A stretch of DNA of 64,000 nucleotides. Origin: Acidimicrobiales bacterium (GTDB lineage: Bacteria > Actinomycetota > Acidimicrobiia > Acidimicrobiales > Aldehydirespiratoraceae). Made by a program: the position numbers and the translations under genes. Numbering within the stretch: position 1 is the first letter of the stretch; every line of letters begins with the position of its first letter. The stretch lies in NCBI GenBank assembly GCA_033344915.1, contig JAWPML010000001.1, positions 1,546,369-1,610,368 of the forward strand, read 5' to 3'. This document shows, one piece after another, positions 2,889 to 4,921 of this stretch. Under the pieces are notes generated by a model. That model was not told where the DNA came from and did not search any database. It saw only the letters and a list, made by a program, of their open reading frames with translations.

Positions 2889-4046
2889 ATGCCCCTGCGC
2901 CGATTCGTCAGCCGTCTCGCCCTCCTGCTCGCCCTCGCGATGGCGGCCGGCGCATGCACGCACGTCCACGTCCTGGTCCTGGCCGGTGAGTCCTTCGGCG
3001 GCCGGGTTCCGGGAACCGCCGGACACGACAATGCGGCGAACTACATCATCCAGTACCTACGAGCCCATGGCGTCGAGGCGATGGACGGCACCACGAACGT
3101 GGCGTCCTACGAGGACGCCTTCGCCTCCGGCACGAACATCATCGGCCGCGTGCCCGGCGCGACGACGCCCGACGAGTACGTGATCGTCGGCGCCCACTAC
3201 GACCATCTCGCGAGCTGCGACAACACCGGCGGCACGGCGACCTGCAACGGCGCCACGGACAACGCCGCCGGCGTCGCGATTGTGTTGGAGATCGCGGCGG
3301 CGATCTTCGACGACGGCCCGGCGCCCGAGCGCACCGTGATCTTCGCCCTGTGGGACCGCGAGGAGGCCGGGCTGCTCGGCAGCAACGCCTGGGTCGCCAC
3401 CAACGCGACGCTCCTCGAGGACGCCGTCGCCTACGTCAACTACGACATCCAGGGCGCCAACCTGCTCCGGAGTCTGCGCAACGACACGCTCGCGGTCGGC
3501 GCGGAGACAGGCGGCGCGGCACTGACCGGCGCGGTGACCGCGGCCGGCGCCGGGTCGACGCTCGATCTCTTCCAGTTGAGCCTCATCTTCGGTCTCGGCC
3601 GCTCCGACCACGCGAACTTCGCCGCCGCGGACGTGCCGACGGTCTTCTTCACGGACGCGACCGGCTCCTGCTACCACACGACCGAGGACACCTACGATGT
3701 CCTCGACCAGGGGAAACTCCAGGAGCAGCGCGACATCGGCGTCGCCCTGGTCAACGAGCTCGCCGCCGGTGTCACCACGCCGACGTTCACCGCCGCACCC
3801 GCCGGCACCTTCGCCGACGCCGTCGTCATCAAGACCCTCGTCGATGCCGGACTCGCCGACCTCGGCCTCTTCTCGGCGTCCGACCAGGCGACGCTGACGT
3901 CGATCTCCGCCGACATCGATGCCATCGTCGCGGCCGGCGCCGGGGCGTTCGACGCGGCCGCACTCAACTCGCTCTTCACCAACTCGCTCTCGCTCGTGAA
4001 CCTGCTCGAGGACGGCACGGACTGCGACGGCTTTCTCACGCCCTGA
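2889..4046 (+). CDS. M28-family aminopeptidase lipoprotein
   Basis: A 385-residue protein with a lipoprotein signal peptide (lipobox AGAC, Cys23). The M28 co-catalytic zinc site is visible: HYDH, TDNAAG, the REEAGLLGS segment with the catalytic Glu, NYD, and a C-terminal YHTTEDTYD. It should remove N-terminal residues from peptides at the outer face of the membrane. The 130 residues after the catalytic domain are Ala-rich and match nothing I recognise. It starts 12 bases after the M23-SLH gene and is probably co-transcribed with it. Confident in the family; the substrate is unknown. Confidence 0.85.
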   Translation: MPLRRFVSRLALLLALAMAAGACTHVHVLVLAGESFGGRVPGTAGHDNAANYIIQYLRAHGVEAMDGTTNVASYEDAFASGTNIIGRVPGATTPDEYVIVGAHYDHLASCDNTGGTATCNGATDNAAGVAIVLEIAAAIFDDGPAPERTVIFALWDREEAGLLGSNAWVATNATLLEDAVAYVNYDIQGANLLRSLRNDTLAVGAETGGAALTGAVTAAGAGSTLDLFQLSLIFGLGRSDHANFAAADVPTVFFTDATGSCYHTTEDTYDVLDQGKLQEQRDIGVALVNELAAGVTTPTFTAAPAGTFADAVVIKTLVDAGLADLGLFSASDQATLTSISADIDAIVAAGAGAFDAAALNSLFTNSLSLVNLLEDGTDCDGFLTP

Positions 4047-4086
4047 GAGCAATTCCCTCACGCTCCGTGGCGCTTGCGAACCCGGG

Positions 4087-4116
4087 ACATGCATGTGATG
4101 ATGGTCACATGCATGT
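4087..4116. promoter_or_regulatory. 30-bp dyad covering a start codon, candidate operator
   Basis: A perfect 12-bp inverted repeat (4087-4098 and 4105-4116, left arm ACATGCATGTGA) with a 6-base spacer. Each arm contains the palindrome ACATGCATGT, with centres 20 bp apart (two helical turns). The ATG of the next gene (4109) lies inside the right arm. The AT-rich composition differs from the flanks. This looks like an operator for a dimeric repressor, or an RNA hairpin that hides the start codon. Confidence 0.55.
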
Positions 4117-4921
4117 TACTAGACGGTCACTTACCCTCCCCCTGGTCCTGCTCCTGGCGCTCGTCGCCGCCGCCTGCACCGTGCAGGTCGGCGCCACCGA
4201 GCTGACGGTCGTCCAGGCCCAGGAGGACGGATTCCTCCAGAACGGCGACGAGCCCTACGTCGCCGTCATCAAGTGGCGGGTCATCCCCGGCACTGCGGGC
4301 TCCGCGTCGGCGCAGTTCATCGGCAACCTCCAGGAGCTCGGCAGCGGCATGGACGACGGCGACAGCGCCTCGATCCCCGCCGCGATGGGCACCGTCGACT
4401 TCCCGGGCATCCAGCACTCCACATTCCAGCAGTTGCTGGCCGAGGGCCGGGTTCCCGAGCTCGTCGGCACGGTGATGGTCGTCATGGAGAGCGATCTCAC
4501 GCCGTGGGGCACGATCAACAACCTCATGAACGATGTCGAGGCAGCCCTCGAGACCGAGCTCGTCAACCAGGTGGAGCCGCTCACCATCGCCCAGCTGACC
4601 GACCCGCAGGCGGTGGCCGACGCCCTCGCGACAGCCGCGGCCAACGTCGAAGCGGCGGTGACCCCCGGCGTGTGGGACTCGATCCTTCTGTTCCTCGGTT
4701 CGCTCGGCAACCCGGACGATCCGATCGCGGTCGGCTTCACGGTGTGGGTCGCGTCCTACGGCGCTCTCGGCGACCTGGTCGAGTCGAGCCTGGTCGGCGC
4801 CCTCCCCGCCAACGCCACCGGCGGCGTGTGGTGGAAGGACGTCGCCGCCAAGACCGAGACGATGACGTTCAGCGGTGACGGTGCCATCTACGAGGTCGAC
4901 ATCACGGCCACGATCTCATAG
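4109..4921 (+). CDS. Putative lipoprotein of unknown function
   Basis: 270 residues. A short lipoprotein signal peptide ends in a lipobox-like AAAC with Cys23. The mature part has no domain I recognise. It is acidic, with a central helical part rich in Ala, Glu and Val (about 120-185), and ends in a segment with WWKDVAAKTETMTF. The chosen ATG at 4109 lies inside a 12-bp inverted repeat, so expression is probably controlled at that site. There is no clear Shine-Dalgarno sequence. It follows the M28 lipoprotein gene by 62 bases but may have its own promoter. Confidence 0.7.
   Translation: MHVTRRSLTLPLVLLLALVAAACTVQVGATELTVVQAQEDGFLQNGDEPYVAVIKWRVIPGTAGSASAQFIGNLQELGSGMDDGDSASIPAAMGTVDFPGIQHSTFQQLLAEGRVPELVGTVMVVMESDLTPWGTINNLMNDVEAALETELVNQVEPLTIAQLTDPQAVADALATAAANVEAAVTPGVWDSILLFLGSLGNPDDPIAVGFTVWVASYGALGDLVESSLVGALPANATGGVWWKDVAAKTETMTFSGDGAIYEVDITATIS

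Follow-up and report, generated by a model that had tools for sequence, protein, structure and literature searches.

A genus-conserved CRP-type site at a lipoprotein start codon: a probable repressor operator in an Acidimicrobiales bacterium

Background

Why does a long and perfect inverted repeat lie across the start codon of a gene? In the window, that is, the whole stretch of 64,000 nucleotides of Acidimicrobiales bacterium DNA analyzed here, positions 4087-4116 (a feature to which no strand is assigned) read ACATGCATGTGA TGATGG TCACATGCATGT: two 12-bp arms around a 6-base spacer, with zero mismatches. A sequence-only reading had described this repeat, a palindrome inside each arm, and the position of the dyad over the ATG of a lipoprotein gene. 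These descriptions are all accurate: the palindrome is ACATGCATGT, with repeat starts 20 bp apart, the ATG is at 4109, and the lipobox-like leader of the gene was recognized by reading. Two functions had been suggested, cooperative binding of two dimers to four half-sites, or an mRNA hairpin that blocks initiation. Overlooked was the centre of the dyad, which has the consensus of a CRP site. Our analysis points to this centre as a conserved CRP-type operator, of a kind that is already known.

The lipoprotein gene and its neighborhood

The gene (P0001, 4109-4921, plus strand) encodes a protein of 270 amino acids with a lipobox-like leader, whose orthologues are 93, 81 and 78% identical. The protein has no family match in Pfam or NCBIfam, and an AlphaFold model built from 4 sequences (mean pLDDT 50.3) was of too low quality to support a fold search. 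Across the four lipoprotein sequences compared, LTVVQAQEDGFLQNGDEPY does not vary. A crude gene caller placed the start at 4181 instead of 4109; we retained 4109 in view of the leader and its conservation. Upstream lies a co-directional gene for an M28-family peptidase (2889-4046, plus strand; PF04389, E 1.3e-39), which ends 62 bp 5' of the ATG.

The inner core of the dyad is conserved

The length of the dyad is by itself weak evidence, as it is unremarkable in this genome. Among 464 kb of genome sequence (the window plus 20 other stretches), 11 perfect inverted repeats have arms of at least 11 bp and a spacer of 3-10, including 6 with arms of at least 12 bp, and three Markov simulations under the same criteria gave 6, 3 and 4 repeats (4, 1 and 1 for the longer arms). 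The longest repeat listed in this sample, at L068 2257-2299, has perfect 19-bp arms around a 5-base loop.

What is clearly beyond chance is the retention of the inner 15 bases and the ATG across four species. The core, TGTGA-TGATGG-TCACA (4094-4109, again without strand), consists of perfect TGTGA and TCACA half-sites at 6-bp spacing, matches the published CRP consensus, and shares the last base of TCACA with the A of the ATG at 4109. We searched 61 genomes, 7 of them from the genus, for the lipoprotein gene (E ≤ 0.001) and found it in 4, all of the one genus (four of its seven genomes). In all four carriers, TGTGA(T/A)GATGGTCAC stands immediately 5' of the ATG, within spacer DNA that has otherwise diverged: the core plus ATG is identical to this genome at 18/18, 18/18 and 17/18 positions in the three relatives, and the 14 bases immediately 5' of the core at 9/14, 2/14 and 3/14. 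Full matches to TGTGANNATGGTCACATG, a pattern derived from these same sequences, occur in the seven genus genomes at this locus only, in the four gene carriers. The gene end that precedes the site is of one kind in G000 and G005 and of another in G003 and G004; since the site is constant nonetheless, it travels with the lipoprotein gene. The M28 gene end is apparently the same in G005, and the different gene end of G003 and G004, which by eye resembles the end of the window gene that terminates at 2876, indicates gain or loss of a gene immediately 5' of the operator.

Further afield, we searched 397 genomes of the order and found lipoprotein homologues (the window gene at 4109-4921, L076 and L078-L081 among them) at 26 places spread over 18 genomes, counts that include the window itself; L074 and L075 coincide with the G005 and G003 loci and were counted once. 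By eye, the site was not seen 5' of the distant homologues at seven of the 25 other places, these being better-scoring ones (L078-L081 and L095-L097, the start of L095 being uncertain), nor was it seen, by pattern and by eye, 5' of L076, which is apparently one sequence with L079. Being conserved in the genus and not seen at these distant homologues, the operator appears to be a genus-level trait.

The outer arms behave differently. The left ACATGCATGT is missing in all three relatives and the right one is retained in G005 only, so that of the four half-sites described earlier, the outer arms are not conserved. Within the window, ACATGCATGT with at most one mismatch has 3 matches, against a shuffle mean of 0.67, and 3 was reached in 2 of 100 shuffles. 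A genome search for ACATGCATGT in pairs, as the sequence-only reading had proposed, returned 5 copies and a pair at 4087-4116 only; two of the remaining three copies lie, by eye, in apparent coding sequence (L001 and L004). With so few copies and no second pair, ACATGCATGT was discarded as a recurrent motif. A single copy, at L072 18215-18224, lies across the start codon predicted for a further gene (MHVDLTTDQK..., minus strand), which is probably leaderless and has GACAGT at -12.

CRP-type sites elsewhere in the genome and in relatives

If the core is a CRP site, is it alone? The pattern TGTGA-N6-TCACA occurs 5 times in this genome, against 1 for the reversed control. Over the 61 genomes, which are related and thus not independent, the counts are 111 and 18, with at least one site in 52 genomes and at least one reversed control in 15. 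All five sites of this genome lie outside predicted genes, in a sample that is 87.8% coding. These five are the only ones used for this comparison: the intergenic fraction among relatives' sites (32/34, own sites included) was set aside because the gene caller had this genome as its training set and predicted few genes in many of the relatives.

Apart from the site at the lipoprotein gene, one perfect site is located about 160 bp 5' of a gene for an Rpf-like transglycosylase lipoprotein (L008 1501-2760; genome 3095847-3097106); excerpts of two studies (PMC4117774, PMC8026907) state that Mycobacterium tuberculosis CRP regulates rpfA. After the Rpf-like gene of L008 comes a frame that matches the PF00211 cyclase family, possibly forming a cAMP feedback loop. 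Another site precedes an NDH-2-like gene and has a TrkA-C gene on its opposite side; another lies past the 3' end of the gene for a tyrosyl-tRNA synthetase, and another 5' of a MarR-family gene (L005 1501-1600; genome 870913-871012). The MarR-family site also reads TGTGA-N6-TCACATG, and translation from this ATG would be in the MarR frame. The likelier MarR start, however, is a second ATG located 84 bases downstream, which has TACAGT at -12. Three of 29 site loci in relatives encode a homologue of one of five site-adjacent proteins of this genome: NDH-2 in G001 (75.5% identity, perfect site present), Rpf in G005 and the lipoprotein in G003.

We also allowed mismatches in the 464 kb sample, using AGTGT-N6-ACACT and ACACT-N6-AGTGT as controls and counting intergenic/coding matches. 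Exact matches numbered 3/0 for the site and 0/0 for each control. At up to one mismatch, the numbers were 3/0 for the site, 0/0 for AGTGT-N6-ACACT and 2/3 for ACACT-N6-AGTGT, so that no copy of the site with exactly one mismatch exists in the 464 kb and one control, with 5 matches, exceeds the site with 3. At up to two mismatches, they were 17/40, 5/19 and 21/20, respectively. Relaxed sites in this sample are not interpretable.

Candidate regulators

The Crp-type HTH family has six places above cut-off in the genome; judged by reading, four of them encode CRP-like proteins that carry a cNMP-type domain at the N-terminus. The main candidate is a protein of 219 amino acids (genome 3905028-3905684, minus strand) that matches CRP/FNR-family structures with E values of 3.4e-34 to 1e-33. 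Those for PDB chains 3h3u, 3mzh and 3d0s, which we take to be the M. tuberculosis CRP protein, are 3.4e-34 to 3.5e-34; chains 4byy, 4cyd and 3r6s are presumably GlxR. A near-identical DNA-recognition stretch, gasrervnka, aligns to gasretvnka; we assume that it is the recognition helix, and that it carries the residues reading TGTGA. Copies of the regulator, 87-96% identical, are found in the other six of the seven genus genomes. On these similarities, the 219-amino-acid protein would be expected to bind the site. A second Crp-like candidate (L014, with REATAR) could be an alternative binder. The nucleotidyl cyclase family PF00211 has thirteen matches in the genome, one with an internal stop, which suggests that a cyclic-nucleotide signal is available.

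A plausible leaderless promoter

Where would transcription start? Among 233 sample genes with an upstream gap, TANNNT occurs at -12, -13 and -14 in 23, 18 and 10 genes, and at other offsets in 0-5; this peak means that leaderless transcription is common in the genome. By this habit, a start at or next to the ATG is likely for the lipoprotein gene as well; the operator, which spans -15 to +1 relative to the ATG, would then overlap it. A candidate -10 element, GATGAT (4097-4102, plus strand), occupies -12 to -7 of the ATG and overlaps the operator; it is GATGAT in three of the four species and GAAGAT in the other (G004). The A and the final T of TANNNT are present in it, and its first base is G instead of T, which makes it a weak or variant -10 at best; GANNNT at -12 is hardly enriched (5/233, compared with 0-5 at most other offsets and a maximum of 10 at -4). 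A possible -35 element, TTGCGA (4074-4079, plus strand), lies 17 bp 5' of GATGAT, and TTGC is found at the identical distance in all four genus loci; it is tentative, since a TTG at 17-bp spacing accompanies just 1 of 76 leaderless genes. Between 3900 and 4300, a scan with a sigma-70-type consensus found no promoter-like site and a terminator scan found none. Given the weak -10, a TTG spacing that is not general and the empty scan, a leaderless promoter is plausible here rather than firm.

Two further features of leaderless genes bear on the core. The TCAC that precedes the start at all four genus loci is found in none of 40 leaderless genes with TANNNT at -12, a count that, with few expected by chance, shows only that TCAC is not required. 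Likewise, the TGn extension is present in none of these 40 genes.

Alternative explanations

Both functions suggested earlier fare poorly. The two exact decamers, whose starts lie 20 bp from each other, could accommodate two dimers binding cooperatively. With no second pair in the genome and the decamers not kept in relatives (none on the left, G005 only on the right), this arrangement has no comparative support, and we consider it extremely unlikely. The label 'operator-like' therefore stands for the inner TGTGA-N6-TCACA, a site for one CRP-type dimer, and falls for the pair of ACATGCATGT palindromes. The sequence-only reading had itself counted a lack of other copies and of conservation in relatives against its proposal: other copies of the decamer pair are indeed lacking, and conservation is lacking for the outer arms and present for the core. 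An mRNA hairpin hiding the start codon is scarcely more credible, in spite of a predicted energy of -22.6 kcal/mol, which in this genome is well beyond that of shuffles (z -3.27, or -3.00 for 101 bases). In the three relatives z is only -1.29, -0.85 and -0.61, the fold predicted for G003 leaves the two arms of the dyad unpaired with each other, and a leaderless mRNA would not contain the 5' arm. Because the core is a palindrome in its own right, G005 and G004 retain a predicted inner stem. A combination of the two ideas is very improbable: the 30 bp would have a double role, serving the promoter of the lipoprotein gene as a CRP operator at the DNA level and, by virtue of arms that have lengthened to 12 bp in this genome, folding into an RNA hairpin that silences the start codon of transcripts reading through from the M28 gene. 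If true, the first codons (Met-His-Val) would also be dictated by the operator.

The remaining alternatives accept the core and interpret it otherwise. The conserved block might be a promoter and nothing else, with an extended -10 (TGT-GATGAT), a leaderless start and a fixed stretch of 6 bases before it, the dyad being incidental. Such a promoter would fit the position of the leaderless -10 in this genome and the conserved TTGC 17 bp upstream, but it would account neither for an invariant TCAC that leaderless genes do without (bearing in mind the low chance expectation) nor for a TGn extension that they lack, and the whole palindrome exceeds its reversed control and is intergenic in all five copies; we regard it as distinctly unlikely. 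A CRP-type operator acting in another mode, as a roadblock to upstream transcription or at a promoter whose start lies elsewhere, is also unlikely, albeit to be taken more seriously. The M28 and lipoprotein genes are co-directional and just 62 bp apart, the gap contains no TA dinucleotide and hence no TANNNT, and the scan found no promoter; against this, the site keeps its position relative to the ATG despite differing upstream gene ends, which points to a promoter belonging to the lipoprotein gene itself.

Proposed mode of action

We consider it probable, from the sequence comparisons above, that the core is a CRP-type operator lying over a leaderless promoter and the start codon, and that it serves to repress the lipoprotein gene. 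A regulator of the CRP/FNR superfamily, of the M. tuberculosis CRP or Corynebacterium glutamicum GlxR type, would bind TGTGA-N6-TCACA as one homodimer centred 7.5 bp 5' of the A of the ATG. The GATGAT -10 would lie within the operator, with transcription beginning at or beside the ATG, so that the bound dimer would sit on both the -10 region and the start, shut out RNA polymerase and repress the gene; repression would be relieved once the regulator leaves the DNA. The sign of regulation is suggested by analogy, because excerpts of PMC4117774 associate binding of M. tuberculosis CRP near the transcription start with repression. The same excerpts place M. tuberculosis CRP sites in clusters at -60 to -40 and +1 to +20; the centre at -7.5 falls between the two. 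We count this against the proposed reading, together with the empty promoter scan, the G in the -10 element, the higher count of the ACACT-N6-AGTGT control at up to one mismatch, the distant homologues inspected, at which no site was seen, and the low number of shared loci (3 of 29) among relatives.

Together with the Rpf-like and NDH-2-like sites, the lipoprotein gene, as a likely CRP-family target, outlines a small candidate regulon; a full-text literature search for a CRP regulon in Acidimicrobiales found no paper. The site also illustrates that, with leaderless transcripts, an operator placed on the -10 element necessarily extends into the start codon. For specialists this is a tidy extension and no surprise.

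Comparison with known systems

The closest parallel is offered by M. tuberculosis CRP (Rv3676) sites near starts, for example at frdA, with a site centre at +4.5 (PMC4117774): there, too, a CRP-type palindrome lies near the start and the regulator is homologous. Unlike the frdA site, the one described here is centred at -7.5, a position counted from the ATG; its target is a lipoprotein without known family, in a genome whose named relatives are Acidimicrobiales and Acidimicrobiia metagenome-assembled genomes (MAGs). With C. glutamicum GlxR, whose consensus is given as TGTGANNTANNTCACA in excerpts of PMC4254451, the site shares half-sites and spacing, and the regulator is again homologous. In contrast to the extended consensus, the central TA is missing here, the spacers being TGATGG or AGATGG, and whereas GlxR is described in those excerpts as mostly an activator, the position of the present site suggests repression. 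Finally, the half-sites and spacing match exactly the E. coli CRP operator, given in PMC4117774 as TGTGAN6TCACA; unlike that operator, the site presented here overlaps the start codon of a gene that is probably leaderless.
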